DNA from: Vibrio mimicus
GTDB taxonomy: Bacteria > Pseudomonadota > Gammaproteobacteria > Enterobacterales > Vibrionaceae
Assembly: GCF_019048845.1 (NCBI RefSeq)
Contig: NZ_CP077426.1
Span: 791,501 to 855,500 of the forward strand
Length of the DNA: 64,000 bases
Direction: 5' to 3'
The notes beneath the pieces were generated by a model. It saw nothing but the letters and a program-made list of their open reading frames with translations, had not been told where the DNA came from and did no database searches. Shown here piece by piece: positions 33,851 through 50,259 of this stretch. Within the stretch, counting starts at the first letter, position 1. Each line of letters starts with the position of its first letter. A program made the translations under genes and the position numbers.

Positions 33851-34759
33851 ATGTTTAAGTCACAGACCGCAATCTTGCCGGAAGCTGGCCCGTTTGCCCT
33901 GTACACACTGATTAAAGTTCGCCAGAACCACGCCAATGTTTTGCATGCGCTCAAGGCTTTACCTGCATTAATTGAAGAAATAAATCAAAACCAACCGGGG
34001 GCAGAGCTCACGCTCTCACTGGCATTTAGCAAAGGTTTTTGGGAGCAGCTTGATGTGGCTTTACCGCCAGAATTGATTGACTTCCCAGAGTTAGGGGAAG
34101 GGGATATTCATGCACCGACTACCGATGTTGATGTGTTGATTCACTGCCACTCTACGCGTCATGACTTGTTGTTTTATGCCCTGCGTAAAGGGATCAGTGA
34201 TATCGCTGAAGATATTGACGTGGTAGACGAAACCTACGGTTTCCGTTACTTAGATGCACGAGACATGACCGAGTTCATTGATGGCACAGAAAACCCGAAA
34301 GCTGAGAAACGTGCGGAAGTAGCTTTAGTCGCTGATGGTGAATTTGCGGGTGGCAGCTACGTGATGGTGCAACGTTTTGTGCATAACTTGCCGGCGTGGA
34401 ATCGCCTCAACTTAGCGGCGCAAGAGAAAGTGATTGGTCGTACTAAGCCTGATTCTGTTGAGTTAGACAATGTTCCAGCGGCTTCGCATGTAGGTCGAGT
34501 TGACATTAAAGAAGAAGGCAAAGGATTGAAGATTGTTCGCCACAGCCTACCTTACGGCAGCGTGAGCGGCGATCACGGCCTACTGTTTATTGCTTACTGT
34601 CATACGCTGCATAATTTTAAAACCATGCTGGAAAGCATGTATGGTGTGACCGATGGAAAAACAGACCAATTGCTGCGCTTTACCAAAGCCGTGACAGGGG
34701 CTTATTTCTTTGCACCATCCCAAGCGATGCTACAAGGCTTGAGCTTAAAAGCTGAGTAA
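33851..34759 (+). CDS. DyP-type heme peroxidase (YfeX class)
   Basis: 302 residues, class of cytoplasmic dye-decolorizing peroxidases. The signature GxxDG is in EFIDGTENP with the distal Asp; the distal Arg and the proximal heme-binding His lie further on, in the ferredoxin-like C-terminal half (VRHSLPYGSVSGDHGLLFIAYC). ATG with GTGAGGA upstream. In the V. cholerae genomes I remember, this gene lies close to flaE; here an 11-kb gene cluster lies between them. Confidence 0.92.
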   Translation: MFKSQTAILPEAGPFALYTLIKVRQNHANVLHALKALPALIEEINQNQPGAELTLSLAFSKGFWEQLDVALPPELIDFPELGEGDIHAPTTDVDVLIHCHSTRHDLLFYALRKGISDIAEDIDVVDETYGFRYLDARDMTEFIDGTENPKAEKRAEVALVADGEFAGGSYVMVQRFVHNLPAWNRLNLAAQEKVIGRTKPDSVELDNVPAASHVGRVDIKEEGKGLKIVRHSLPYGSVSGDHGLLFIAYCHTLHNFKTMLESMYGVTDGKTDQLLRFTKAVTGAYFFAPSQAMLQGLSLKAE

Positions 34760-34897: not shown

Positions 34898-35941
34898 TTA
34901 TCGAGAGTTTTGTTCTAACACACAGACTGGGGCATCAACATGACATTGATAGCCACTTGCTTGTAAACGACCATCGCTTGGATTGCGTCTAAAGCTGACT
35001 AAATTATTTGAATGTTGGTTAGCCACTATCAGCCACTGCTCACAAGACGAGAGAGAAAAGTCTCTAGGAAACCTTCCGCCGCACTCCTGCATACTGTGCC
35101 ATTGAATATCAGACCCCTGTATCGCAAAGCAACTGATGGCATTTTGATGCCGGCATGAGACATACACAAAGCGCTCATCGGCAGAGAGCTTGATTGCGCC
35201 TGCAGCCGCACCTTTTGCCTGTTGAGGGAGTAGATCGGCTTGGTGCTGTACTTGCCAACCCTCAGCCGTTTTGGCGATCACCACTAGCGTTTCACTCAGT
35301 TCACACACCACATAGGCCGTATCTTCCGCACGATTAAAGACTAAGTGTCTTGGCCCTGAACCCGTGGGAAGAGGTAAGTCTTGTTGTAGGCTAAACCCTT
35401 GCTCATCGTGATGATAGAAACGTATGGCATCGCAGCCTAAATCAACCGTGACCAATCGAGGTTCTGTGCTCTGAAAAAACACTTGATGAGCATGCGGTGT
35501 GATCGGCCGTTCGGGCGTTGAATCTTGCTCATTCGCGGCTAAGTTGGCCGCTAAGTCTGCGACTACGTGAGTGGGTTTTCCTTGTTGGTCGAGTGTGTAA
35601 ACACAAACATTGCCTGAGCCATAATTCGCCACGGCAAGGTATTTGGCATCCGGAGAGGTTGCCACATGACATGGATAGTCCCCAGCGATAGGCAAGGTAT
35701 GAGTCTGTTGGTCTATGATACTCACTAACTCTGCGCCCTCTTGTTGAGCGACTTCCGAGAAGCTATAGACGGCTTGTGATGATTGCGTCAGGTAGGATGG
35801 ATTACGCAGAGGCGCGAAATCCTCAAGCCTAGTGAGTTCACCTGTGTGTGGATTGAGGCGAATCTGCGCAATACCTCGACTGTGGCTGGGTTCATCGGTG
35901 TAAGTGCCTACGTAAAATGTTAAGTGTCCACTGGTTTGCAT
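34898..35941 (-). CDS. Seven-bladed beta-propeller lactonase family protein
   Basis: 347 residues from ATG 35941 (MQTSGHLTFYVGTYT), with AAGGAT upstream. The repeated blade pattern (FYVGTYT, PDAKYLAVANYGSGNVCVYTL, GSGPRHLVFN, LSADERFVYVSCRHQNAI) is that of the Pgl/YbhE lactonase family, which opens sugar-1,5-lactones such as 6-phosphogluconolactone. No signal peptide, so cytoplasmic. It is last in the minus-strand run symporter-KDG kinase-KDPG aldolase-GH20. In this context I infer it opens the 1,5-lactone of N-acetylglucosaminic acid; the exact substrate is not shown. Confidence 0.85.
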   Translation of the reverse strand: MQTSGHLTFYVGTYTDEPSHSRGIAQIRLNPHTGELTRLEDFAPLRNPSYLTQSSQAVYSFSEVAQQEGAELVSIIDQQTHTLPIAGDYPCHVATSPDAKYLAVANYGSGNVCVYTLDQQGKPTHVVADLAANLAANEQDSTPERPITPHAHQVFFQSTEPRLVTVDLGCDAIRFYHHDEQGFSLQQDLPLPTGSGPRHLVFNRAEDTAYVVCELSETLVVIAKTAEGWQVQHQADLLPQQAKGAAAGAIKLSADERFVYVSCRHQNAISCFAIQGSDIQWHSMQECGGRFPRDFSLSSCEQWLIVANQHSNNLVSFRRNPSDGRLQASGYQCHVDAPVCVLEQNSR

Positions 35942-35977
35942 AGCGATAATTTTATCCTTAAACCTTATCAAATGAAC

Positions 35978-35999
35978 GCCGCCAGTTGGCGCTGGCGGC
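35978..35999 (-). terminator. Intercistronic hairpin between the GH20 gene and the lactonase gene
   Basis: GCCGCCAG, a six-base loop and CTGGCGGC. It lies in the 72-base gap and has no T run, so it may be a processing or attenuation hairpin. Confidence 0.5.
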
Positions 36000-36013
36000 T
36001 CTGTGTATCAAGA

Positions 36014-38461
36014 CTACTTCGCTAAAGTGTGGAGTAAGCTTTGAGTCGGCTTGACGATAGCGATGATGGTTTCATCAAAGATGATGGCATGCGCATCAAG
36101 AATCGCTTGGTATTCAGTGGCTTCTGCCGCCTTCACGGATTTTCCTTGTTTTGCCCGTTCGAGCAAAATGTTGGCGATCTGGGCGACTTTTAGGGTTGCA
36201 TCCGCCACTTTTACCGTCTCAATAGATGCGATGTTATTGGCGAAAATCGGCTTCGCTTGTTGAGCCGCTAACGCGGCCTCTTGATAGTGCATGGTCAATT
36301 TATCCAATGCATCAGTATCACCTTGGGCGAATTGAGTCACCAAGTCATTCATCGTGTAAACCGCCAAACTCTCTACTGGTAAGGCATCGGCAAATCGGTT
36401 TAAGCGCTCATACTGGTTGTAGAGATCGCCTTTGTTGGGGGTTGAAATCCATTTTTCCCAATGGCGAGCATAATACTGAGCGGGCTCAATGTATTTTGCT
36501 AACGTCTGCAATGCGGCAACATCGGCACCATTGGCTAAGCGCTTTAACATGATGCTCTGATTGGCATGATGGCGAAGCCCTAGCGAGATTTCAGACCAAG
36601 TATCCATTACGTTCATGCGTTGATACATGCTGCGCTCATCGGTCAGCGTTTGGCTAGACCATAAGCGTTCTGCAATCGCATAACTACGCGGCCACAACCG
36701 TTGCTCTATGGTTAGTGAGTCTAGGTTTTCCCCCCAAATGGTGATTTCACCGCCTAAAATCAGATTTTTTTCATCGCCTTGCAGCTCGGCAGGGTAGCCA
36801 CCCTCCGGCTTGGGAATGACGCTGCCCTTGATTGCTGTTCCTGCTACCTGCTCACCGGTGGTGGGCCATCGAACATTTCCAATCAGCTGATAGCTGCTCT
36901 CTTTCAACTTACCCTCAGCAAATTCATAGTTGAATTCGGTGTAAGACATGAAGTTGTCCATATGGCCGCGAAATTTAATGCCGGGTTGGTAGTCGAGAAT
37001 GTGGACTTCTTGGCGTGATTTGCCGTTGTAGTCAGTAAATGCACGGAAAGTGCCGTCTTTGGCTTCGATAATGGTTAAATTACCATGACGGGGGCCACCC
37101 TTATTTCTCGGTTTTACCCAGTTGTAAGTTTCGAACTTTTCGCCACTGTGCAGGGTATCATCCACCGTAATGCCCGTTGGCATGGGGTCGTTGCGATAGT
37201 GATAGCTGGTCGGTTGCGGCTGATCGAGATAGTAACCGGTAGACAAAACGCCTCGGTATCCCTGCTTCGCTGCACTGCCAATACTGTCGTGTCCTCGCCA
37301 GCTTTGAATAACAATTGATTTAGGCAGATCCTTATGCCAGATCTCATCCCAGCCGGACATCTTCTTACCACGTTCGGCAAGCATCTGCTCAACCTTGGTA
37401 TTGAGGTAAGATTGCAGGCCACGTTCACCATCGAGGTGATTGTCTTTAATGAATTGCTGGATCTTCGGATTATCTTTCCATTGTTGGTAGTTCGGCTTGT
37501 CTCCCCCAATGTGGAAATATTCGTCAGGGAAGAGTTCTACAACTTCATCGAAAATACGGGCAAGCATGGTGTACAGCTCTGGATTGGTTGGGTCCATCAA
37601 CGGTTCGAAGACCCCCCAAGCCCGTTGCTGAGGGTAAGACTGCTCACCGAGACCAGACATCAGTTCCGGATAGGCATGAGCTACGGCAGAAGCATGACCA
37701 GGTAATGAGATTTCAGGGATCACACGAATACCGAGATTGCGAGCATAGTTGACCACATAGCGAATCTGCTCTTTGGTGTAGTAGTCGCCATCCGAACTTT
37801 TTTCCCAAAGCTTAGGGGAGCTATCCAGTTGGATGCGGATCCCTTGGTCATCCCAAATATGCCAGTGAAACACGTTCATCTTTGCGGATGCCATCGCGTC
37901 CAGTTGGCGCAAAATGACATCGAGTTCGATGAAGTGGCGCGCAGTGTCGTAAGAGACTCCACGCCACTTAAAGCGCGGCGCATCTTGAATTGACACCACT
38001 GGAACCGAATATCCCTTGGCATCGGTTTGCACTAGTTGCAGAAAGGTTTCTAGAGCGTGGAATGCACCATATGGACGGGGGGATGAGATATGGATTTGCC
38101 CATCGCTTACGGTCAGTTGGTATGACTCATCGCTTTCCAGATTCTGCACTTCCTCTTTAGGGCCTTGGCGAATATCAATCACTAATGTCGCCGTCTGTTC
38201 GGACTTCGCTTGCCAGTGCAACATGGGAAGACCAGTTTGGCGGTACAAGCGATCCATCGTACGTTTGGCATTAAATTGCACCCGATCCGAATCGAATCCT
38301 TTGATGTAAATGCTGAAGTTTTTATCAATATTGACTGTGCCAACGCCCAATTCCACGCTTTGTGGATAAGGCATGAGGTTTAAAGGTGTGGAGGGAGCCA
38401 TTGCCATCAGGTTTGTACTTAGTAATCCGGAAATGAATAAAGCAAGCGTTGATCTTTTCAT
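36014..38461 (-). CDS. Secreted GH20 beta-N-acetylhexosaminidase-like protein, catalytic Glu replaced by Lys
   Basis: 815 residues with a signal peptide (MKRSTLALFISGLLSTNLMAMA). A GH20b domain (about 28-160) precedes the TIM barrel: YDTARHFIELD, NVFHWHIWDDQG, IRVIPEISLPGHA and GWDEIW are normal family motifs. At residues 317-322 it reads HIGGDK, where the family has HIGGDE: Asp321 (which orients the substrate acetamide) is kept, but the general acid Glu is Lys322 (codon AAG at 37498-37496). About 120 extra residues lie between barrel strands near 430-560. Expected role: release of GlcNAc or its oxidised form from chito-oligosaccharides outside the cell; the Lys makes activity doubtful. Confidence 0.9.
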   Translation of the reverse strand: MKRSTLALFISGLLSTNLMAMAPSTPLNLMPYPQSVELGVGTVNIDKNFSIYIKGFDSDRVQFNAKRTMDRLYRQTGLPMLHWQAKSEQTATLVIDIRQGPKEEVQNLESDESYQLTVSDGQIHISSPRPYGAFHALETFLQLVQTDAKGYSVPVVSIQDAPRFKWRGVSYDTARHFIELDVILRQLDAMASAKMNVFHWHIWDDQGIRIQLDSSPKLWEKSSDGDYYTKEQIRYVVNYARNLGIRVIPEISLPGHASAVAHAYPELMSGLGEQSYPQQRAWGVFEPLMDPTNPELYTMLARIFDEVVELFPDEYFHIGGDKPNYQQWKDNPKIQQFIKDNHLDGERGLQSYLNTKVEQMLAERGKKMSGWDEIWHKDLPKSIVIQSWRGHDSIGSAAKQGYRGVLSTGYYLDQPQPTSYHYRNDPMPTGITVDDTLHSGEKFETYNWVKPRNKGGPRHGNLTIIEAKDGTFRAFTDYNGKSRQEVHILDYQPGIKFRGHMDNFMSYTEFNYEFAEGKLKESSYQLIGNVRWPTTGEQVAGTAIKGSVIPKPEGGYPAELQGDEKNLILGGEITIWGENLDSLTIEQRLWPRSYAIAERLWSSQTLTDERSMYQRMNVMDTWSEISLGLRHHANQSIMLKRLANGADVAALQTLAKYIEPAQYYARHWEKWISTPNKGDLYNQYERLNRFADALPVESLAVYTMNDLVTQFAQGDTDALDKLTMHYQEAALAAQQAKPIFANNIASIETVKVADATLKVAQIANILLERAKQGKSVKAAEATEYQAILDAHAIIFDETIIAIVKPTQSLLHTLAK

Positions 38462-38497
38462 GGGATTTTTCCTTTGATTTTTATACTCAGCTTGCTG

Positions 38498-39127
38498 TTA
38501 TGCGACTAACTCAACAGCTTCACGAACTAAACGACCAATTTCATCCCATTGTTCGTTCTCAATCAGTTGAGGGGCGACCATCCAAGTTCCGCCACAGCAC
38601 ACCACGCGTTCTAGTGCGAGATAATCATTGATGTTGTTTTTGCCAATGCCACCTGTAGGCATCAGCTGAACATCAACGTACGGTGCGAGCAGGGATTTCA
38701 CCATAGCGATACCGCCCGATGCTTCCGCAGGGAAGAATTTTAACAAGGTCAGGCCGAGTTCAAGCGCTTGTTCTACCTGACTTGGGTTGTTGATCCCCGG
38801 TACAATCGGCATCCCTATGTTATGACAGTAGCGAACGGTATTGGGGTTTAGGCCCGGAGCAACGACAAACTCAGCACCCGCGGCTTTGGCTTGCTCCACT
38901 TGTTCGGCATTCAGCACGGTTCCAGCCCCGATACACATCTCAGGATAAGCTTCACGCATTGCTTGGATTGATGCTGCCGCCGCTGGAGTCCGAAATGTCA
39001 CTTCAGCGACAGGTAAACCATTTTCTATCAGCACCTTAGCCAATGGAATGGCGTGTTCAACGTGGTTGATTTGAATAACAGGAATAATTTTGAACCGCTT
39101 AAGTTTGTTGATAATTTCTGTTGTCAT
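38498..39127 (-). CDS. KDPG aldolase (2-keto-3-deoxy-6-phosphogluconate aldolase)
   Basis: Splits KDPG into pyruvate and glyceraldehyde-3-phosphate. 209 residues. Active-site Glu42 and Arg46 in AEVTFRTP, GAGTVLN, and the Schiff-base Lys130 in LLKFFPAEASGG; the phosphate loop is MPTGGIG. It follows the KDG kinase by 21 bases, so the two make the last steps of one pathway. V. cholerae has another Entner-Doudoroff aldolase elsewhere, so this is probably a second, cluster-specific copy. Confidence 0.93.
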   Translation of the reverse strand: MTTEIINKLKRFKIIPVIQINHVEHAIPLAKVLIENGLPVAEVTFRTPAAAASIQAMREAYPEMCIGAGTVLNAEQVEQAKAAGAEFVVAPGLNPNTVRYCHNIGMPIVPGINNPSQVEQALELGLTLLKFFPAEASGGIAMVKSLLAPYVDVQLMPTGGIGKNNINDYLALERVVCCGGTWMVAPQLIENEQWDEIGRLVREAVELVA

Positions 39128-39148
39128 TGTTTTATACCCAGTAAAAAA

Positions 39149-40099
39149 TTAGCAAAGAGTGAGGTGGGCCATTTCTGCTTTAGGAATGATCGCCCCTGAA
39201 AATTGGATCACAATCGAAGCCAGTTGGTGACCCAACGCCGCTGAAGCTTCGGCACTTTGACCGCTGAGACGTGCCGCTAAATAGCCTGCGGCAAAGGAGT
39301 CCCCAGCCGCGCAGGTATCAACGACATGCGTCACCTGTTGCGCGGCGACAAATGCCTGATGTGGCTCACCATTTTGCTGCCAAATGACTTTACAGGGATG
39401 GCTGCCACGTTTGATCACGATCTCTTTACAGCCAAATCGCGCACAACGTTGCTCGACACTTTCTTTATCTTCTTCATCGCCCCAGATGTGTAGATCATCC
39501 TCTTCTGTGATCAGAGCAATATCGACAAGTGGCAGTAGTTGGCTGTACCAAGTGCGAGCTTGATCCGCACTCCACAATTGGGGGCTGAAATTATTGTCAA
39601 AAATAATCGTGCCACCGCTCTGTGAAAAATCACGTAGGGTGTTGATAAGCTGCTGTTTACTCGTGTCATTGAGGATCGCTAAGCTGATGCCACTGAGATA
39701 CACACAATCGATCTCACCACGCTGGATGGCTTGCTCTAATTTGCTTGGCGCTGTAGCGGTGAAATAACTTTTTGCTGCGGCGCTGTCTCGCCAATACATA
39801 AAACGGCGTTCGCCTTGCGGATCGGTTTCAACCAGATAGAGTCCTGGCAGTTTATCGCTATATTGCTGCACAAGAGTGGTGTGGATCCCTTCTTCTTGCC
39901 AATCGGCAAGTAGCTGCTTAGAAAGAGGATCTGTACCCAATCCAGTAGCGTAACTCACCGTTATTGGACGGTTAGCCGTTAGGCGCGCAAGGTAGAGTGC
40001 GGTGTTGAGTGTATCGCCGCCAAAGCCTTTTTTGAGGGGCAGGCCACTAAGTTCGATCATGCATTCACCAAAGAATGCGATATGAAATGGAGGTGTCAT
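39149..40099 (-). CDS. kdgK: 2-keto-3-deoxygluconate kinase (PfkB/ribokinase family)
   Basis: 316 residues. N-terminal FFGECMIELSG with the GGDTLNTALYLARL sugar-binding region is typical of KDG kinases. The C-terminal signature is DTCAAGDSFAAGYLA; here the anion-hole motif reads AAGD rather than GAGD, with catalytic Asp267 kept. Product KDPG is the substrate of the aldolase encoded next. The gene starts 61 bases after the symporter gene. Confidence 0.92.
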   Translation of the reverse strand: MTPPFHIAFFGECMIELSGLPLKKGFGGDTLNTALYLARLTANRPITVSYATGLGTDPLSKQLLADWQEEGIHTTLVQQYSDKLPGLYLVETDPQGERRFMYWRDSAAAKSYFTATAPSKLEQAIQRGEIDCVYLSGISLAILNDTSKQQLINTLRDFSQSGGTIIFDNNFSPQLWSADQARTWYSQLLPLVDIALITEEDDLHIWGDEEDKESVEQRCARFGCKEIVIKRGSHPCKVIWQQNGEPHQAFVAAQQVTHVVDTCAAGDSFAAGYLAARLSGQSAEASAALGHQLASIVIQFSGAIIPKAEMAHLTLC

Positions 40100-40160
40100 A
40101 AAGAGGCTAACCTTGTCAAAGAAGGTGGCTCATCGAGCCACCGTGTTTGGGAACGAATCA

Positions 40161-41678
40161 TCAAGAATTTTGTGTCACTTTACGGTTTTGCAAAGACAGA
40201 TCTTCTTCTAGCTGGCCGTTATCGGATAACTCCATTTCCATCAGCGCTCGCTCATCATCAAGGATGGCTCTAGCCATCTCAGGGGTGACTTGGTTCGCAG
40301 GAGTTACAAGGCTTACGATAACCCCTAAGGTCAAAGCAAACAGGCAAGAAGGAATGACAGGGTTACCCCAAAAGGCTGTCAAATCAGCGTTGAACATCAC
40401 AGTGAATGAGGCGGCGGAGGCTCCCACGAGCGTGGCGAGTGCACCTTGCCAATTGTAGCGTTTCCAGAAGCGACCGAGCATTCCACACACAAACATGCCG
40501 GACATGACGGTTGAAATCATCTTAGTGATGTAGCCGATGATGTCATTGGAGGTGAGAGCGAAGAGCAAAGCACAACCGATCACGACGACCAACGCAAGAC
40601 GAGAGTAATTCAACATGGACTCTTTGTTTGGTACTCGGCCTGTGAACATGACATAGACATCACGCAGTAAAATCGATACCCCTGCAATTGCGTCTGAACT
40701 CGCGCTAGACATAGTGGCAGAAAGGCCGGCAATCAAAACAATAAGCCCTACACCAACAGGCAGTACGGTGGCGGCAATGTAGGGGAACGAGTAGTTAGGG
40801 TTTTCTAATGTAGGATCAATGGCATGCGCAGCCATACCTATGATTGCAGGGATGATGGAGAAGAACAGATACAAGATGCCAGACCCGACAAATGAGCGAC
40901 GAATCGTTGAGACATCTTTCCCCGAATATATCCGTTGACGGAAAGAGGGCGTTGCCAACACACCCACACCAATCACCACAGAAAGTGAGATAGCCGGCAG
41001 CAGTCCGAGTTTTTTGATCGCGAGGAAGCTGGTGGCGGCGGGATCCATCGCGCTGTAAAGATTGTCTAGGCCGCCGATGTGCTGCACCGAAAGCACCGCC
41101 ATCAAAATAAAGCCCGCAAAGAGGATGATGGCTTGAATCGTGTCTGTCCATACCACGGCGGTATAGCCACCGATGACAACATAAATCGTGAACGCTGCAG
41201 CAATGATGATTTTCGCGGTACTCAGTTCAATATCAGCAATCCATGCGAGGTACATCCCCCCACCAAGGATGTGTGCTCCTAACCAACCGATGGACGCGAT
41301 GAAGATGAGTAAACCCACCACATTCTTCACAATACGATGCGCGCCCACGTAATAAGCCAGCTCTTCACTCATGGTCATGAAATTCAGCTTACGAACTGGG
41401 GCAAACCAGAGAGCCAACAGTAAAATGCCTAGTGCGCCCCCAATACCATAGAGTGCTCCAGCCCAACCATTGGCATAACCAAAACCCACGGCGCCCATGC
41501 TGGAGCCTGTACCGACCATGGTGGCCACCGTGGTACCTAAAACGAGAAATAATGGCAGACCGCGGCCGCCCAATAGGAAATCTTCACCGGATTTTTGGTT
41601 GCGGGACACGACCCATCCAAGCCAAATTAAAAAAAGGACATATATACCAAAACCTGTAAGAAAAAATGTGCTACTCAT
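40161..41678 (-). CDS. Sodium:solute symporter (SSS family)
   Basis: 505 residues with about 13 membrane helices. The SSS pattern is clear: GTTVATMVGTGSSMGAVGFGYANG near the N terminus and the core GLSATMSSASSDAIAGVSILLRDVY with the Na+ site serines. The hydrophilic C-terminal 30 residues are cytoplasmic. Substrate not shown; from the operon it is expected to import an amino-sugar acid such as N-acetylglucosaminate, or a hexosaminide. First gene of the five-gene minus-strand unit. Confidence 0.88.
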   Translation of the reverse strand: MSSTFFLTGFGIYVLFLIWLGWVVSRNQKSGEDFLLGGRGLPLFLVLGTTVATMVGTGSSMGAVGFGYANGWAGALYGIGGALGILLLALWFAPVRKLNFMTMSEELAYYVGAHRIVKNVVGLLIFIASIGWLGAHILGGGMYLAWIADIELSTAKIIIAAAFTIYVVIGGYTAVVWTDTIQAIILFAGFILMAVLSVQHIGGLDNLYSAMDPAATSFLAIKKLGLLPAISLSVVIGVGVLATPSFRQRIYSGKDVSTIRRSFVGSGILYLFFSIIPAIIGMAAHAIDPTLENPNYSFPYIAATVLPVGVGLIVLIAGLSATMSSASSDAIAGVSILLRDVYVMFTGRVPNKESMLNYSRLALVVVIGCALLFALTSNDIIGYITKMISTVMSGMFVCGMLGRFWKRYNWQGALATLVGASAASFTVMFNADLTAFWGNPVIPSCLFALTLGVIVSLVTPANQVTPEMARAILDDERALMEMELSDNGQLEEDLSLQNRKVTQNS

Positions 41679-41893
41679 GGAATACCTCGTTAGAATAATC
41701 CATATTCAGTTTTTATTTATTGCACCAGAGCATCATTCATTATTTGTGCTAATTTAATTAACTGCCATCCAAGAATGTATTTAAATTAACTTGTTGGCTC
41801 TGTTGCTTGATTTGTATTTTGTAGGGTAAGAACGTTGAGATCAGATAATTTGTCTTCAGGATTTATCTCAACGTTAGGTAGATTTAAGTAATC
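41679..41893 (-). promoter_or_regulatory. Promoter region of the symporter operon with an 11-base inverted repeat
   Basis: 215 bases, AT-rich, between ridA and the symporter gene. AACGTTGAGAT at 41831-41841 and ATCTCAACGTT at 41865-41875 form a perfect inverted repeat with a 23-base loop just after the ridA stop. There is no T run on the minus strand, so it may be an operator pair or a 3' mRNA structure. TTTTGTAGG at 41817-41825 resembles motifs in the 43784-43965 region. Confidence 0.5.
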
Positions 41894-42286
41894 TTATCGA
41901 CGATCCTCTCGGTAGCAAGTCACATCGACTTCCACTTTGACGTCCACAACGAGATCACAGACCATGCAAATACGCGCCGGTGGGTGTTCGCCAAAGAATT
42001 CTTTAAATACTTTATTGAACGATTGGAAATAACGAGAGTCGGTGAGCACTACTTTTACGTGCACCACATCTGCAAGGGTGTAGCCCGCCTCGGTCATAAT
42101 GTTGACACAGTTTTGGATCGCAAGACGTGATTGCTCAACGATGCCGCCCTCAACCACTTCACCATCGATCATCGGTGTTTGGCCAGAAACATACAGAAAA
42201 CCGCCGGCTTCGGTGGCTCTTGCAAAAGGTAGGTGTTGACCACCGGTACCTGTACCACCTTCTACACCGTAACGTTTAATAGACAT
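41894..42286 (-). CDS. ridA: RidA family enamine/imine deaminase
   Basis: 130 residues of the YjgF/YER057c/UK114 fold. The family segments GGFLYVSGQTP, a central NCVNIMTEAGYTLADVVHVKV and HPPARICMVCDLVVDVKVEVDVTC are recognisable. RidA speeds hydrolysis of enamines released by PLP-dependent dehydratases. It follows the D-amino-acid deacylase gene by 63 bases, and the PLP enzyme that needs it is divergently encoded at 43966. Confidence 0.9.
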   Translation of the reverse strand: MSIKRYGVEGGTGTGGQHLPFARATEAGGFLYVSGQTPMIDGEVVEGGIVEQSRLAIQNCVNIMTEAGYTLADVVHVKVVLTDSRYFQSFNKVFKEFFGEHPPARICMVCDLVVDVKVEVDVTCYREDRR

Positions 42287-42349
42287 ATTATTCTCCAGTG
42301 TTTAAAAATTATTATTTTAAATTTTTTGATGCATTTATTTGCGATAAAC

Positions 42350-43783
42350 TTATTTTCGATAAATAAATGTACCATTTCTTTTTTTACTCACTTCACCTTT
42401 GAAATAAGATAAAGCACCATTCACAAAAACATATTCGATACCCTTAGCCATAGAAATGGGTTTTTCAAAGGTTGCAGTATCTTTAACTGTTTTTGGATTA
42501 AATATTACTAGGTCAGCATATGCGCCTATTTTAATTTCCCCTCGTCCTTGCAAGTTATATCGCTTGGCCGACATTCCCGTCATTTTATGAATGGCTTCTG
42601 GCAGAGAAAATAACTGCTCTTCTCGGCAGTAATGCCCCAACACCTTGGGGAACGTCCCCCATAAACGAGGGTGCGGCTTAGGATCATTCGGTAAGCCATC
42701 AGAGCCGATCATGGTTAATCTGTACTTAAGCACTCGTTTTACATCGTTCTCATCCATGCAGTGGTAAACCGCTCCGGCAGGTTGAAGTGCTTTTGCGGTA
42801 TCCATTAATGGCATTGCCATTTCTTGGGCAATCTGTTTCAGCATCTTGCCTGCATGTTCTGGATGAGCTTCTGACCAAGTGATGTAAATATCGATCTCAT
42901 CGGATACTTGTTTGAGGTCGAGCGTGGAAGAACTCGCAGAATAAGGATAACAGTCACAAGCCACATCTTGATGCAGAGAGACTTTATCCATCAAGTTCAG
43001 CACTTCAACTGTTCTGCCCCAGTTGCCAGCACCGGCACATTTAAGGTGAGAAATCACCACGGGGACTTTGGCAAACTGACCAGTTTCGAAAGCTTCTTGC
43101 ATCGCAGACAGAATTTCTTCGAACTCAGTACGCATGTGGGTAGTATAAATCCCACCGTGATCGCCCAGTATTTGTGCCAAACGCATCACTTCATCGGCAT
43201 TGGCTTGCTTGGCACTGGCGTAGGCTAAACCAGAGCTGAGTCCAAGTGCTCCCTCTTGCATCGCTTGAGCAAGGGCTAAACGCATTTTCTCGATTTCTTC
43301 ATCGGTGGCCGTGCGCTGTAAATTATCCATCACGTTATTACGTAAAGCGGTATGGCCGACTAAGGCCGCGACATTCACCGCAGGTTGTGCATCTATTACC
43401 GCTTTGGCGTAGCTCGCGAAGGTTGGATATTGAAAATCGCTGCGTTTTCCCAATAAGTTCATTGGGTCGGGCGGATCTCCGGCTAAAACGACGGGGCTAG
43501 CACTAATGCCACAGTTACCCACTATAACGGTCGTGACCCCTTGGCTAATCTTTGGCAAACATTCAGGAAAGCGGATCACATTCGTATCATCGTGCGTATG
43601 TACATCAATAAAACCAGGGGCGATAGCTAACCCGTCTGCCTTAATCACATGCTTGGCTTGTGCGTCATCCAACTGGCCAATTCGTTCAACGCGATCGTGG
43701 CGAATGGCAATATCAGCGTGATAAGGCTGGCCGCCGCTGCCATCGAAAACTTCTACACGTTTGATCAGGGTATCGAACAACAT
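42350..43783 (-). CDS. N-acyl-D-amino-acid deacylase (amidohydrolase)
   Basis: 477 residues, D-aminoacylase family. The zinc motif is GFIDVHTHDD (His62, His64) with Cys91 in GNCGISASP, which bridges metal in known D-aminoacylases. GLSSGLAYA, THMRTE and SHLKCAG carry the other ligands, and MIGSDGLPNDPKPHPRLWGTFPKVLG is the C-terminal family signature. N-acetylglucosaminic acid is an N-acyl-D-amino acid, so deacetylation to D-glucosaminate is a reasonable role here. No signal peptide: it acts after uptake. Confidence 0.9.
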   Translation of the reverse strand: MLFDTLIKRVEVFDGSGGQPYHADIAIRHDRVERIGQLDDAQAKHVIKADGLAIAPGFIDVHTHDDTNVIRFPECLPKISQGVTTVIVGNCGISASPVVLAGDPPDPMNLLGKRSDFQYPTFASYAKAVIDAQPAVNVAALVGHTALRNNVMDNLQRTATDEEIEKMRLALAQAMQEGALGLSSGLAYASAKQANADEVMRLAQILGDHGGIYTTHMRTEFEEILSAMQEAFETGQFAKVPVVISHLKCAGAGNWGRTVEVLNLMDKVSLHQDVACDCYPYSASSSTLDLKQVSDEIDIYITWSEAHPEHAGKMLKQIAQEMAMPLMDTAKALQPAGAVYHCMDENDVKRVLKYRLTMIGSDGLPNDPKPHPRLWGTFPKVLGHYCREEQLFSLPEAIHKMTGMSAKRYNLQGRGEIKIGAYADLVIFNPKTVKDTATFEKPISMAKGIEYVFVNGALSYFKGEVSKKRNGTFIYRK

Positions 43784-43965
43784 GAGTGACCTTTTTCATT
43801 TTTCGTTTGTATGGATGCATCTTAATAATCCCCCACTACAAAATCAGTGATAATCCACACATAAACGCTATTGTTGTTTGATACTTTCTAACCTTGAGTG
43901 TAGTTTTTACAGAGTCAATTGTGATTAATCATAGAGTTAAATCATGTTAGAGAAGGATTTTTATT
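43784..43965. promoter_or_regulatory. Divergent promoter region of the amino-sugar-acid locus
   Basis: 182 AT-rich bases between the deacylase gene (minus) and the PLP-enzyme gene (plus). TGTAGTTTTTACA at 43899-43911 has inverted TGTA/TACA ends, and ACTACAAAATCAGT at 43835-43848 carries the same TGTAGT element on the other strand. MurR/RpiR (HexR-like) proteins bind TGTA...TACA sites, so these are candidate operators of the regulator at 45354. TGATTAATCA at 43922-43931 is a perfect palindrome. Confidence 0.45.
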
Positions 43966-45234
43966 ATGGTTTTAGAAAGTTATCGTGATAAAAACTATCA
44001 TAATGAATGGGTTAACCATCCTGATGTTGGGCAAAAATGCCAAGCCAACTCACGAGAGGTGGCCACAAAATACAGTCTGATCAATGAAGAGGTCAGTTTG
44101 CCCGCGGCGGTAATCCAGCAGTCTAAACTCAACAACAATTTAGATTGGATGCAGCGTTTTGCGCAGCAGCATCAAGTGAAGCTCTGTCCACACGGCAAAA
44201 CGACCATGATCCCGAGTCTCTTTCGTCAGCAGCTTGAGCATGGCGCTTGGGGGATTACGGTGGCCACCGCAGCGCAAGCTGAGGTGGCGGCTAGTACCGG
44301 AGCGACGCAGATCATCATTGCCAATCAACTGGTCGGTAAAGTGAATATGGCCATCGTAGCCAACCTTATTGAGCAGCGTGGAGTGAACATTTATACCTGC
44401 GTTGATTCAACACTCAACGTCAAAGCGCTAGGGGAATATTTTGCTCAGCGCCAGATCCCGCTCAATTTGCTTATCGAATATGGTGTGGAAGGTGGTCGCT
44501 GTGGCTGTCGTGATCAAAGCCAAGTGTTATCGCTTGCCCGTTTCATTCAACAACAGAGCCATCTCATATTACGTGGTATTGAAGTCTACGAAGGGGTGAT
44601 TCATGGCGACAATGCGGAGGAAATGATTCGGCAATTCCTGAACCAAGCCTTGGCGTTAACCCGTGCTTTAAAGCAAGAAGCGTTGATTGCCGATAAACCT
44701 ATGGTGACCGGGGCAGGATCCGCATGGTATGACGTGGTTTCTGAATGCTTTTCAAACCTAGACGATGTGGAGGCGATCATTCGTCCCGGTTGTTATGCAA
44801 TCCATGACACTGGAATCTATTTAGCTGCTCAGAATAAGGTGATGGCTCGCGCAGAAAAAAACCAAGGTGTGGCATGCGATCTGGGGGGCGATCTCCAATC
44901 TTCTCTTGAAGTCTGGGCACACGTTCTTTCTCGACCAGAAAGCAACAGACTGGTGGTTGGGCTAGGTAAGCGTGATGTGGCGTTTGATGCAGGATTACCC
45001 ACACCTGAACGGGCTTATCGTAATGGGCAGCTTATTTCTGTGGGCAATGCGCAGACCATAGCGGTAATGGATCAGCATGCCTTTATTGAGATTGATTCAG
45101 ACAATGAACTCAATGTTGGAGACATCATAGCGTTCTCCACATCGCATCCATGCTTAACGATTGATAAGTGGCGCTCCATCGCAATATGTGATGATGACTA
45201 TCAAGTTACGCATTGGGTTGAGACTTGTTTCTAA
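43966..45234 (+). CDS. DSD1-like PLP-dependent D-amino acid dehydratase (alanine-racemase fold)
   Basis: 422 residues, fold type III. The PLP lysine is Lys78 in LCPHGKTTMIP. The C-terminal SHPCLTIDKW gives the His and Cys that bind zinc in eukaryotic-type D-serine dehydratases. Known relatives remove water and ammonia from D-serine or D-threonine-like amino acids. D-glucosaminate has the same D-alpha-amino-beta-hydroxy arrangement, so conversion to 2-keto-3-deoxygluconate plus ammonia is my inference; the divergently encoded RidA would clear the enamine. Ribosome site GAGAAGGA precedes ATG. Confidence 0.85.
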   Translation: MVLESYRDKNYHNEWVNHPDVGQKCQANSREVATKYSLINEEVSLPAAVIQQSKLNNNLDWMQRFAQQHQVKLCPHGKTTMIPSLFRQQLEHGAWGITVATAAQAEVAASTGATQIIIANQLVGKVNMAIVANLIEQRGVNIYTCVDSTLNVKALGEYFAQRQIPLNLLIEYGVEGGRCGCRDQSQVLSLARFIQQQSHLILRGIEVYEGVIHGDNAEEMIRQFLNQALALTRALKQEALIADKPMVTGAGSAWYDVVSECFSNLDDVEAIIRPGCYAIHDTGIYLAAQNKVMARAEKNQGVACDLGGDLQSSLEVWAHVLSRPESNRLVVGLGKRDVAFDAGLPTPERAYRNGQLISVGNAQTIAVMDQHAFIEIDSDNELNVGDIIAFSTSHPCLTIDKWRSIAICDDDYQVTHWVETCF

Positions 45235-45241
45235 ACCGGAC

Positions 45242-45277
45242 GCCGTGAGTCCGCTCGCTTTAAGGTATACTCACGGC
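45242..45277 (+). promoter_or_regulatory. Inverted repeat upstream of the RpiR gene
   Basis: GCCGTGAGT at 45242-45250 and ACTCACGGC at 45269-45277, a perfect 9-base inverted repeat with 18 bases between, starting 8 bases after the PLP-enzyme stop. It contains a TATACT that could be a -10 element. Terminator, operator or attenuator cannot be told apart from sequence. Confidence 0.5.
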
Positions 45278-45353
45278 AAAAATGGGCGCAGAGCATCTCG
45301 GGTCGGCACGCCGGCCATCGCCGCCCCCCTACAGCAAAAAATAGGACACTAGG

Positions 45354-46217
45354 TTGAGTTTAGACGTCGATATTATTTCTCGGATCACCGAGCGATTCAG
45401 TGCGCTACGCGATGCGGAAAAAAAAGTCGCAAAATTGATCATGGACGATATTGAAACCGCTGCGAATGCCAGTATCACTGAACTGGCAGAAAGCGCCGCA
45501 GTGAGCGAAGCCACTATTACTCGCTTTGCCAAAGCGGTCGGTTGTAAGAATGTTCGTGATATGAAGATCAAACTGGCTCAAACGCTCACTGTTGGTCAGC
45601 GATTTATTCTTGAGCCACCCGATCAAAGCGGCTATCAAGGTATCTATGAGTCGATCAAACAGTCGCTGGATATCAACCGAAATTTGATCAATGAAGCGGA
45701 TATCGCGACTGCTGTTGAGTGGCTGCATGAGGCAAGGCAAGTAATCGCGATTGGCATGGGCGGAGGCTCGACCATTGCCTCGCAAGAGATGCAGCACCGC
45801 TTATTTCGCTTAGGTTATGCTGTCGTGGCTTATAACGATGGCTTGATGTCACGCATGATCGCGTCAACCGCCGATGGTAATGATGTGATTGTGATGCTCT
45901 CGGCTACAGGGTACACACCCGCCATTATTGAAAGTGCAGAGCTTGCCAAAGAATACGGTGTGAAAGTGATTGCGATTACCCCGAAGGCGACACCTTTAGC
46001 AAAAATCGCGGATCTCACTTTGCCAATTGAGCACCAAGAAACCGACTTTATCTATAAACCTTCGGCTTCTCGGTATGCCATGCTGGCCTTAGTGGATGTA
46101 TTGTCTATGGCTTTAGCGGTCAACCACAAACGCCGTTCACGCGATAAACTCCGTCGCTTAAAACTGGCTCTCGACTCGTATCGTGGCGGTTTAGATCGAC
46201 AACCGCTGGGCGATTAA
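45354..46217 (+). CDS. MurR/RpiR family transcriptional regulator
   Basis: 287 residues. N-terminal HTH_6 domain (about 1-77: SLDVDIISRITERFSALRDAEKKVAKLIMD, then VSEATITRFAKAVGCKNVRDMK) and a C-terminal SIS domain (about 120-260: VIAIGMGGGSTIASQEMQHRL, VIVMLSATGYTPAIIESAELAKEYGVKVIAIT) that binds sugar phosphates. The start is a TTG at 45354 with ACACTAGG upstream; no ATG is available in the conserved N-terminal region. KDPG or another pathway sugar phosphate may be its signal, as with HexR. It is likely to control the whole locus. Confidence 0.9.
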   Translation: MSLDVDIISRITERFSALRDAEKKVAKLIMDDIETAANASITELAESAAVSEATITRFAKAVGCKNVRDMKIKLAQTLTVGQRFILEPPDQSGYQGIYESIKQSLDINRNLINEADIATAVEWLHEARQVIAIGMGGGSTIASQEMQHRLFRLGYAVVAYNDGLMSRMIASTADGNDVIVMLSATGYTPAIIESAELAKEYGVKVIAITPKATPLAKIADLTLPIEHQETDFIYKPSASRYAMLALVDVLSMALAVNHKRRSRDKLRRLKLALDSYRGGLDRQPLGD

Positions 46218-46296: not shown

Positions 46297-46334
46297 AAGA
46301 ACAAGTAAGCAATAGTGTGAGGAGTGCAGCAGCC

Positions 46335-47471
46335 ATGGCCATGACGGTAAACACCAATGTGTCAGCGCTGGTCGCACAGCGACATCTCAATTCCGCTTCC
46401 GAGATGCTCAATCAATCTCTTGAGCGCCTCTCTTCTGGCAATCGCATTAACAGTGCGAAGGATGACGCTGCAGGGCTACAAATATCGAACCGTCTGGAAA
46501 CGCAAATGCGTGGCCTGAGCATTGCCGTGCGTAATGCGAACGATGGCATTTCGATCATGCAGACCGCAGAAGGGGCGATGCAGGAAACCACTCAACTATT
46601 ACAACGTATGCGCGATCTCTCTTTGCAATCGGCCAACGGCTCGAACAGCGCCGCTGAAAGAACCGCATTACAAGAAGAAATGGCCGCTTTAAACGATGAA
46701 TTGAATCGAATTGCTGAAACCACCTCTTTTGCTGGGCGAAAACTGCTCAATGGCCATTTTGAAAAGGCCAGTTTCCAGATTGGAGCCAGCAGTGGTGAGG
46801 CGGTACAGCTTTCACTGCGCAATATGCGATCCGACAGCTTGGATATGGGCGGCTTTAGCTACGTTGCCTCCGCAATGGCGGATAAAAAGTGGCAAGTCGC
46901 GAAAGGTAAGCAACAACTCAATATTAACTACGTCAATGCGCAAGGCGAGAATGAGAACATTCAGCTCCAAGCGAAAGAAGGCGATGATATTGAAGAAGTG
47001 GCGACTTACATCAATGGCCAAACTGATAAAGTTTCAGCTTCTGTGAATGAAAAAGGGCAACTTCAGCTTTACATCGCGGGTAAAGAGACTGCCGGAACCC
47101 TATCGTTCAGTGGCAGTTTAGCCAACGAATTACAGATGAACTTATTGGGTTATGAAGCGGTGGATAATCTTGATATCAGCAGTGCTGGCGGAGCGCAACG
47201 CGCCGTCTCAGTGATTGATACGGCACTCAAGTATGTCGATGGGCATCGCTCAGAGCTAGGGGCGATGCAAAATCGTTTCCAACACGCGATCAGTAACCTC
47301 GATAACGTGCATGAAAACCTAGCTGCCTCGAACAGCCGGATTAAAGATGCGGATTACGCCAAAGAAACCACGCAAATGATTAAGCAGCAAATTTTGCAGC
47401 AAGTCAGCACTTCTGTGCTCGCTCAAGCGAAACGCCAGCCGAAGTTTGTGCTGTTTTTGCTGCGTAATTAA
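46335..47471 (+). CDS. flaE: Flagellin FlaE
   Basis: 378 residues. GAGGAG upstream supports ATG 46335 ([21 protein letters not shown]); the ATG two codons later is also possible. The N- and C-terminal D0/D1 regions are those of flagellin ([21 protein letters not shown]). It is the most divergent of the four here: the last residues are [12 protein letters not shown] instead of the ALSLLG ending of FlaC, FlaD and FlaB. Own sigma-28 promoter at 46270. There is no clear terminator between it and flaD. Confidence 0.93.
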
Positions 47472-47649
47472 CGTTGCCTGCTCGACTTCGTCTCTAACTC
47501 ATTGTTCGCCTGACTCAAGATCAAGCTCGCTTTATCGTCCGTGGTAGAAAAACCTTGAGTGCCAAAGTGCACTTTTTGTGCATTTTATGTGTTTGATGCC
47601 TAATTTATCGCCAACCAAACTTTTTTCTTAAAAAATCGAAAATTTTTCC

Positions 47650-47676
47650 TAAAGGATTTAAAAAACGCGCCGTTAT
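47650..47676 (+). promoter_or_regulatory. Sigma-28 promoter of flaD
   Basis: TAAA at 47650-47653, 15 bases, GCCGTTAT at 47669-47676. Confidence 0.88.
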
Positions 47677-47680
47677 AAAA

Positions 47681-47759
47681 GGTAACTTTGAGAGAACTAC
47701 TTTGGTTTTCCGAGACGTCGGAAACCGGATACATCGGAAAATCAATTGGAGAAATCACC
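47681..47759 (+). promoter_or_regulatory. Structured 5' leader of flaD, near copy of the flaC leader
   Basis: It starts GGTAACTTTGAGAGAACT and carries the hairpin GGTTTTCCGA-GACG-TCGGAAACC at 47704-47726, then CATCGGAAAATCAATTGGAG. The flaC leader at 1015-1104 has the same order with a few more bases in the middle. Conservation outside the coding sequence suggests control of translation or stability, for example by CsrA at the GGA motifs or by a small RNA. Confidence 0.6.
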
Positions 47760-48893
47760 ATGGCAGTGAATGTAAATACCAACGTAGCAGCAATGACAGC
47801 TCAACGTTATTTGACTGGTGCAACCAATGCACAACAAACTTCAATGGAGCGTCTATCTTCAGGCTTTAAAATCAATAGCGCTAAAGATGATGCTGCCGGC
47901 CTACAAATTTCTAACCGCTTGAATGTACAAAGCCGCGGTCTGGATGTGGCAGTACGCAACGCGAATGATGGTATTTCAATTGCTCAAACCGCAGAAGGTG
48001 CGATGAATGAAACCACCAACATTCTGCAACGTATGCGTGACTTGTCACTGCAATCTGCGAACGGCTCGAACTCCAAATCTGAGCGTGTTGCGATCCAAGA
48101 AGAGGTCACAGCACTGAATGATGAACTGAACCGTATTGCAGAAACCACTTCATTCGGTGGTAACAAACTACTGAACGGTACTTTCTCAACGAAGTCGTTC
48201 CAAATCGGTGCTGACAACGGTGAAGCGGTAATGCTAACCCTGAAAGACATGCGCAGCGATAACCGCATGATGGGTGGTACTAGCTACGTTGCAACTGAAG
48301 GCAAAGACAAAGACTGGAAAGTACAAGCGGGCGCAAACGACATCACTTTCACGCTGAAAGATATTGATGGCAACGATCAAACCATCACTGTTAATGCTAA
48401 AGAAGGCGATGATATCGAAGAAGTGGCGACTTACATCAACGGTCAAACCGACATGGTGAAAGCGTCTGTCAACGAGAAAGGTCAGCTACAAATCTTTGCT
48501 GGTAACAACAAAGTAACTGGTGATGTAGCCTTCTCTGGTGGTCTGGCGGGTGCATTGAACATGCAAGCTGGCAAAGCTGAAACCGTTGATACTATGGATG
48601 TAACCTCAGTAGGTGGCGCGCAACAATCGGTTGCGGTTATCGACTCTGCACTGAAATACGTAGATAGTCACCGTGCTGAACTGGGTGCGTTCCAAAACCG
48701 CTTCAACCATGCAATCAGCAACTTGGATAACATTAACGAAAACGTTAATGCCTCTAAGAGCCGAATCAAAGACACCGATTTCGCGAAAGAGACAACCGCT
48801 CTTACCAAATCGCAAATCCTGTCTCAAGCGTCAAGTTCAATCTTGGCTCAGGCGAAACAAGCGCCAAACGCGGCACTTAGCCTGCTGGGTTAA
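47760..48893 (+). CDS. flaD: Flagellin FlaD
   Basis: 377 residues from ATG 47760 ([21 protein letters not shown]), the same length as FlaC and its closest match in the window; the in-frame ATG at 47688 lies in the leader. The conserved D0/D1 ends are intact ([21 protein letters not shown]; ends PNAALSLLG). The middle (about 190-290) is where it differs most from FlaC. Expressed from its own sigma-28 promoter and closed by a terminator. Confidence 0.95.
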
Positions 48894-48905
48894 TCCCCAC
48901 ACCAT

Positions 48906-48935
48906 AAAAAAATCCAGCTTCGGCTGGATTTTTTA
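48906..48935 (+). terminator. Terminator of flaD
   Basis: AAAAAAATCCAGC, TTCG loop, GCTGGATTTTTT. Confidence 0.93.
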
Positions 48936-49020
48936 TTTGCATCCAGTTTCATTAATTAGTGTCTAACTTCACGAAAGTGAAGGGGATTTTCTTTTTTTTA
49001 AAAAAAGCCTGAAATTTCTC

Positions 49021-49047
49021 TAAAGGATATGTATTTCTCGCCGTTAC
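49021..49047 (+). promoter_or_regulatory. Sigma-28 promoter of flaB
   Basis: TAAA at 49021-49024, 15 bases, GCCGTTAC at 49040-49047. Confidence 0.88.
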
Positions 49048-49065
49048 AGGATACGAGAGAAATGA

Positions 49066-49103
49066 GGTAAACCGAGGTGAGGTGAGAGACACCGAGGTTT
49101 ACC
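49066..49103 (+). promoter_or_regulatory. Hairpin in the 5' leader of flaB
   Basis: GGTAAACC at 49066-49073 pairs with GGTTTACC at 49096-49103, and GGTG/CACC pair inside. It stands between the sigma-28 promoter and the ribosome site AAGGAG at 49117-49122. It is unrelated in sequence to the flaC/flaD leader. Confidence 0.6.
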
Positions 49104-49128
49104 AACTTATCCGCCTAAGGAGATCAAT

Positions 49129-50259
49129 ATGGCAATTAATGTAAACACGAATGTGTCTGCCATGACCGCACAGCGCTATTTGAATGGCGCTGCTGATGGT
49201 ATGCAGAAATCAATGGAGCGTTTGTCGTCCGGCTACAAAATCAACAGTGCCCGAGACGATGCCGCAGGTCTGCAAATTTCTAACCGTTTAACATCGCAAA
49301 GTCGTGGTTTGGATATGGCGGTGAAAAACGCCAACGATGGTATTTCTATCGCCCAAACTGCGGAAGGGGCGATGAACGAAACGACCAACATCTTACAACG
49401 GATGCGCGATCTTTCGTTGCAATCCTCCAACGGTTCGAACTCCTCTTCTGAACGCCGAGCGATTCAAGAAGAAGTGTCCGCCCTCAATGATGAGCTGAAT
49501 CGTATTGCAGAAACTACCTCATTTGGTGGTAACAAGCTGCTTAACGGTTCATTTGGTCATAAATCGTTCCAGATTGGTGCTGATTCGGGAGAAGCTGTCA
49601 TGCTCAGCATGGGCAGTATGCGCTCGGATACCCAAGCGATGGGCGGTAAAAGCTATCGCGCTCAAGAGGGGAAAGCGGCAGACTGGCGTGTAGGCGCTGC
49701 AACAGACCTTACCCTGAACTACACTGATAAACAGGGTGAAGCACGTGAAGTGACCATTAATGCCAAACAAGGTGACGACTTAGAAGAGCTTGCGACCTAT
49801 ATCAACGGTCAGACCGATGACGTTAAAGCCTCAGTGGGTGAAGACGGCAAAATGCAACTGTTTGCTTCATCGCAAAAAGTGAATGGTGATGTGACGATTG
49901 GCGGTGGACTCGGCGGTGAAATTGGTTTCGATGCAGGTCGCGATGTGACTGTGGCGAATATCGATGTTTCCACTGTAGCGGGTTCACAAGAAGCCGTTTC
50001 AGTACTGGATGGTGCATTGAAAGCAGTGGATAGCCAACGTGCTTCATTGGGTGCATTCCAGAACCGTTTTGGTCACGCGATCAGTAACTTGGATAACGTT
50101 AACGAGAACGTGAACGCCTCTCGTAGCCGTATCCGTGATACCGATTATGCTCGTGAAACCACGGCGATGACGAAAGCGCAGATATTGCAACAAGCAAGTA
50201 CCTCGGTGCTGGCGCAAGCGAAGCAGTCACCATCTGCAGCTCTGAGCTTATTGGGGTAA
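49129..50259 (+). CDS. flaB: Flagellin FlaB
   Basis: 376 residues ([21 protein letters not shown]). AAGGAG is well placed before ATG 49129. The D0/D1 domains are those of the family ([21 protein letters not shown]; ends [10 protein letters not shown]). Compared with FlaC and FlaD, many Lys are replaced by Arg in the C-terminal helix ([17 protein letters not shown]). Own sigma-28 promoter; flaG follows after 70 bases. Confidence 0.95.

Follow-up and report, generated by a model that had tools for sequence, protein, structure and literature searches.

We found that the nine-gene locus at positions 34898 to 46217 of a 64,000-nucleotide stretch of the Vibrio mimicus genome (contig NZ_CP077426.1, positions 791,501 to 855,500; the whole stretch is hereafter called the window) is almost certainly the Vibrio form of the ong cluster, with a 2-keto-3-deoxy-6-phosphogluconate (KDPG) aldolase gene included. 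The pathway, which acts on N-acetylglucosaminic acid (GlcNAc1A), is already known from a 2022 publication, and the locus adds to it a member with a lactonase gene and two probable lesions. The explanation that we favour, to which we assign a probability of roughly 85%, is a Vibrio ong pathway in which the hexosaminidase-like OngA and the kinase KdgK are doubtful and the lactonase is an older neighbour. The analysis yields three testable additions, namely a candidate operator for the regulator OngR, a KdgM porin as a candidate outer-membrane route and ongA lesions in two close Vibrio genomes, and it cautions that gene names alone do not establish pathway completeness.

The source genome consists of three contigs totalling 4,347,065 bases, with the window on the 3.26 Mb contig. 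The locus holds nine open reading frames (ORFs), seven on the minus strand followed by two on the plus strand, and a Pfam scan of their products supported all nine families, each over its cut-off. On the minus strand these are lac (34898-35938; Lactonase, PF10282), ongA (36014-38461; GH20 with both GH20b domains), kdgA (38498-39127; KDPG/KHG aldolase), kdgK (39149-40099; PfkB kinase), ongIT (40161-41678; SSF domain, an SSS-family symporter), ongD (41894-42286; Ribonuc_L-PSP, the RidA family) and ongB (42350-43783; Amidohydro_3); on the plus strand they are ongC (43966-45234; D-ser_dehydrat with Ala_racemase_N) and ongR (45354-46217; HTH_6 with SIS, a MurR/RpiR-family regulator). Intergenic gaps measure 21 to 75 bases inside ongB-ongD and inside ongIT-kdgK-kdgA-ongA-lac, with lac counted from 35938, whereas 215 bases lie ahead of ongIT and the divergent ongB and ongC are 182 bases apart. 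The ORF list and Pfam thereby bear out the nine genes, with their positions and orientations, of the original prediction, an earlier reading of this DNA made from its letters alone. That reading also proposed catabolism of an oxidised amino sugar, and it was right in outline, since the genes correspond to those of the published ong cluster and OngB carries the residues specific to GlcNAc1A.

Comparison with characterised oxidative chitin genes, which the original prediction had suggested as a check, led to the ong cluster of Pseudoalteromonas prydzensis ACAM 620 (PMC9537276). According to the main text of that paper, GlcNAc1A is turned into 2-keto-3-deoxygluconate (KDG) 6-phosphate through OngB, OngC and KdgK; the cluster also has OngIT, OngA, OngD, the repressor OngR and a TonB receptor; the reactions, apart from the role of OngD and the aldolase step, were measured in Pseudoalteromonas; the ong genes are highly conserved with the exception of ongOT-1; and kdgA is reported in Vibrio, Klebsiella and Serratia clusters. 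The window likewise has ongA, ongB, ongC, ongD, ongIT, kdgK and ongR, all together in one cluster, a single run ongIT-kdgK-...-ongA is found in both, and the lytic polysaccharide monooxygenase (LPMO) is located elsewhere in both genomes, the window's genome having two AA10 LPMO genes, both above the cut-off. In contrast to the published cluster, that of the window adds kdgA, has a terminal lactonase, places ongB-ongD divergently from ongC-ongR instead of in a single ongCRBD operon, and carries substitutions at the OngA general acid and at one KdgK arginine. Furthermore, no ORF inside or beside the window's cluster encodes an OngOT-1-type TonB-dependent receptor (a search confined to these ORFs), and the ORF list and Pfam gave no other outer-membrane uptake gene among the cluster ORFs. 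When surveying 196 sampled genomes of the genus, with ongB called at E <= 1e-60, we observe ongB in 79, and the loci that were mapped mostly share the same neighbours. The nearest proteins (98-99%) are labelled Vibrio cholerae in public sources.

Upon examining OngB, a subtype V amidohydrolase, we infer a GlcNAc1A deacetylase rather than a D-aminoacylase. In pairwise comparisons with solved structures, it scored 554 bits against the deacetylase PpOngB (PDB 9kb1, 9kb3, 9kb4), compared with 444 against the D-aminoacylase AfDam (1m7j) and 363 against BbDam (3gip), with which it shares the superfamily and the metal site. With a constant six-residue offset in numbering, the zinc site Cys97/His222/His252, together with Asp368 and His68/His70, is kept, as are the carboxylate-binding residues and Ser292 and Gln298, so that the metal, catalytic, carboxylate-binding and specificity residues are those of PpOngB. 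At the specificity positions D-aminoacylases carry Thr and Leu/Arg, and PpOngB, PaOngB and PfOngB are reported to act on GlcNAc1A and not on N-acetyl-D-amino acids (PMC12017989). Among 50 relatives, some genomes being counted twice, 17 of 19 functional positions do not vary, Ser occupies position 290 in 49, and the residue at position 348 differs between sequences; at this cavity position the window has Cys, as do 44 of the 50, and not the Gly of PpOngB. What speaks against the assignment is that the closest solved structure of all, 9g5m (637 bits), is an amidohydrolase of undescribed function. We also observe OngB relatives (about 60%) accompanied by OngC, OngD and OngR relatives in many Betaproteobacteria and others (loci L022-L085); these stretches have no ongIT or ongA match, and a different transporter may serve there.

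The gene content and these residues suggest the following route. GlcNAc1A from LPMO-oxidised chitin ends would be imported by OngIT and deacetylated by OngB to D-glucosaminate, from which OngC, a fold-type III pyridoxal 5'-phosphate enzyme and putative D-glucosaminate dehydratase/deaminase, would take off water and ammonia to give KDG, with OngD probably removing an enamine or imine intermediate. A KdgK would then phosphorylate KDG, and KdgA would cleave KDG-6-phosphate to pyruvate and glyceraldehyde 3-phosphate. Alternatively, the cluster could serve N-acyl-D-amino acids or D-serine through an ordinary D-aminoacylase and a D-serine dehydratase, in line with the superfamilies of OngB and OngC, with a best PDB match of OngC named D-serine deaminase, and with the deamination of D-serine and D-threonine that is also reported for the published OngC (PMC9537276). 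We consider this highly improbable, as OngB has Gln and Ser where D-aminoacylases have Leu/Arg and Thr, and D-amino acid use calls for none of the adjoining KDG kinase, KDPG aldolase and GH20 genes.

The original prediction further held that every step has a gene here and that no gene is left over. This completeness is not supported, given an OngA without its general-acid Glu, a KdgK without an Arg, a cluster without an outer-membrane uptake gene, and a lactonase that is separable from ong within the genus and absent from the published description in its main text.

OngA has a signal peptide and the GH20 catalytic and b domains, but its H-x-G-x-D-E motif ends in D-K, with Lys at residue 322 in place of the Glu of the catalytic Asp-Glu pair. 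This Glu, described as the general acid/base of the GH20 family, is found in 157 out of 157 other OngA sequences (37 from genus loci and 120 from a protein database, with organisms partly overlapping), and the only other departure in 267 near-invariant columns is one Leu to Ile. We consider it likely that OngA is inactive in this genome; because its general acid is a lysine, it is probably unable to cleave oxidised chitobiose. In the sister genome G088 (OngB 99% identical) the Glu is kept, but ongA is frameshifted about 70% along; an intact close copy of OngA (P0001, 99%) was also found. Lesions of ongA in two closely related genomes would split monomer use from oxidised-oligomer use. Three observations weigh against the favoured explanation: the ratio of nonsynonymous to synonymous substitution rates (dN/dS) of ongA between the window and G088 is low (0.083); OngA has 5 singleton residues, which is not extreme (median 1, with three others of 29 having at least 5, in a leave-one-out count from which truncated ORFs and most doubly represented loci were left out); and two further GH20 genes in the genome have intact D-E motifs and could replace OngA. 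The low dN/dS and the unremarkable singleton count imply that any loss of OngA is recent, or that the change is an error. Those two GH20 genes also favour the alternative that oxidised oligomers are still used, either through them or through enough activity retained by the Lys-bearing OngA, a possibility to which we give clearly less weight, given the role of the Glu in GH20 enzymes and the report that P. prydzensis no longer grew on GlcNAc-GlcNAc1A once ongA alone was deleted (PMC9537276).

The cluster KdgK is likewise doubtful. Its residue 172 is Ser where the motif DNNxRPxLW has Arg, the residue present in 35 of 35 others and in the genome's own second KdgK. In the T. thermophilus KDG kinase 1v19 the aligned residue is likewise Arg, presumably a substrate contact, a point on which a literature search gave nothing useful. 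Additionally, the protein has a 3-residue insertion that is not found in G088; of 34 others, 34, 33 and 33 lack the three inserted residues, taken one position at a time. With 375.8 bits the protein comes near KdgK in NCBIfam while staying under the cut-off of 400. Its dN/dS between the window and G088 (0.25) is the highest within the cluster, and it has 1 singleton residue (median 0, several others being equal or above, in the leave-one-out count). The low dN/dS of ongA and the singleton counts speak against general decay; the changes in OngA and KdgK are unusual by position, not by number. A second KDG kinase-aldolase (KdgK-KdgA) pair lies on the other large contig (C1), and this pair and the other GH20 genes could keep the pathway running; free GlcNAc1A would still be usable if the second KdgK phosphorylates KDG.

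Both changes could also be sequencing or assembly errors, as the strain is represented by one assembly only and the remaining seven cluster proteins depart nowhere among 682 invariant columns. We regard this as unlikely: the ongA and kdgK ORFs are open throughout, both substitutions fall within active-site motifs, the sister G088 carries a different ongA lesion, and KdgK also carries the 3-residue insertion, which is missing from G088 and from almost all relatives. A more speculative reading, which we rate as rather improbable, is that the lineage is becoming a scavenger that has lost the periplasmic step freeing GlcNAc1A from oxidised chitobiose and kept the importer, deacetylase and deaminase, with ong as a cassette that docks by an older lactonase gene and a KdgM porin replacing the TonB receptor in other Vibrio. 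Were it true, the strain would live on GlcNAc1A freed by other chitin degraders.

Next, we considered the lactonase, a seven-bladed propeller protein in whose sequence no signal peptide is seen. The original prediction was right that the gene is present, but the start of its ORF at TTG 35971 is probably to be replaced by ATG 35938, since relatives align from there. The protein reached 170.8 and 97.9 bits against the NCBIfam models of propeller-type 6-phosphogluconolactonase (cut-offs 500 and 370, respectively), thus falling short of both, in contrast to Pfam Lactonase. A homologue occurs in 114 of the 196 genus genomes (E <= 1e-10). It lies within 12 kb of ongB in 23 genomes and, when G030 and G109 are added (ongA beside lac, with ongB hidden by a contig break), is adjacent to ong in 25 of the 79 ongB genomes; this count covers 84 lactonase matches (38-100% identity), among them that of G194 at a distance of 16 kb, the rest having been inspected by eye with none within 12 kb of ongB. 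The 25 ong-adjacent lactonases are 46-100% identical to that of the window. In 8 genomes that lack ongB the lactonase is 48-59% identical, and lower-identity lactonases (38-45%) at other places are common whether or not a genome has ong.

In 3 of these 8 ong-less genomes the lactonase has the flanks that surround ong plus lac in relatives (L142 versus L123 and L125; L145 versus L126), except that an additional RidA-like gene follows lac only where ong is present, and in a further comparison, of L006 with the ong-less L124, three other genes intervene in L124. A search at E < 0.1 turned up no ong remnants, either in the eight ong-less stretches or in five stretches that surround lower-identity lactonases. 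The same flanks without ong remnants imply one of two histories, namely an insertion of ong next to lac or a clean loss of ong. In the window and G088 the two stand together at another place, with a DyP-like gene on one side and flagellin-like genes on the other. The lactonase would thus be the older gene, next to which ong is found in some members of the genus. A competing explanation makes it a working part of the pathway that opens GlcNAc-1,5-lactone in the cytoplasm. Its adjacency to ong in those 25 genomes, on the same strand and directly after ongA in most of the loci mapped, would fit this, as would the joint presence of ong and lac at a different place in the window and G088. So would a 238-aa Pgl-type gene (PF01182 match) elsewhere in the genome, between genes that resemble zwf and gnd in sequence: with it, 6-phosphogluconolactone has another enzyme, of another family, leaving lac free for another lactone. 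We nevertheless hold this role to be possible rather than likely, as 54 of the 79 ongB genomes have no lactonase next to ong, the 8 genomes above have one without ongB, the pathway as set out in the main text of PMC9537276 works without a lactonase, and the Km of PpOngB is reported to be similar from pH 6 to 8, which its authors read as similar affinity for the lactone and the open form (PMC12017989). In many ong loci the lactonase is immediately followed by a second RidA-like gene (for instance L006:18875-19264, cluster c9), and such a gene also neighbours the lactonase in the ong-less L127.

We then examined outer-membrane uptake across the genus. Many Vibrio ong clusters without a TonB receptor have a KdgM-type porin gene nearby (for instance L007:15539-16234). 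At a threshold of at least 59% identity, a KdgM-family porin (PF06178) is present in 18 of the 196 genomes; in 16 of them its gene and ongB are within 6 kb of each other, the other two being G076, where it is 107 kb off on the same contig, and G117 (79% complete), which has no ongB match. In the 6 such loci that were mapped, from 5 genomes, the porin gene is directly upstream of ongA. For clusters that lack the published TonB receptor, these porins are candidate carriers of oxidised chitin fragments across the outer membrane. A genome search found no KdgM porin gene in the window's genome. By eye, the 16 KdgM-linked and the 25 lac-adjacent genomes do not overlap, and the two kinds of ong locus may simply be different lineages.

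Finally, the divergent ongB-ongC region contains a candidate OngR operator, TTTGATACTTTCTAACC (43877-43893), which differs from the strict palindrome TGNTAGNNNCTANCA by two bases. The corresponding near-palindrome TGATASTTTCTAHCA recurs, with few exceptions, in 39 of 40 extracted regions with the divergent ongB-ongC layout (the exception being Grimontia L016), some genomes being counted twice in this set and part of the motif having served to find the near-palindrome. In 35 sequences taken from upstream of ongIT, no site with at most one mismatch appears, and three contain a two-mismatch site, in keeping with the report for P. prydzensis that OngR represses ongCRBD and not ongIT-kdgK-ongA (PMC9537276). 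OngR would bind the near-palindrome, through which it would repress the divergent ongB-ongD and ongC-ongR units on either side. A one-mismatch copy of the palindrome just within ongC (43986-44000) is possibly a second OngR site or chance, and a second conserved block in the same region, CAGTGA...CACACA (43845-43861), loosely resembles a CRP site. A wider OngR regulon could not be drawn, as the strict palindrome has one further match in the genome, compared with three matches for a control pattern, and the window's own operator is two bases away from it. OngR itself comes nearest to HexR in NCBIfam, its 198.8 bits staying below the cut-off of 296 for membership. Control of the ongIT operon by HexR was considered on account of an AT-rich upstream stretch like the HexR consensus, and was rejected, as no shared site appeared in the 34 other upstream sequences; 13 places in the genome match with at most one mismatch, none of them in the window.

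The lactonase, the KdgM porin and the operator are not described for the ong cluster in any title or abstract opening that we found, and the main text of PMC9537276, supplements and figures being outside the search, contains "lacton", "KdgM" and "operator" 0 times each. PMC11906056, on V. parahaemolyticus on chitin, gave no hits to terms for oxidised chitin, LPMO, ong, lactonase and KdgM, and for the Aeromonas of PMC11653859, as far as its text goes, OngB and OngC alignments were distant or none. On either side of the window's cluster, a neighbour resembling a DyP-type peroxidase, as judged from its sequence alone, lies at 33851-34759, and three consecutive flagellin-like genes lie at 46317-50259.
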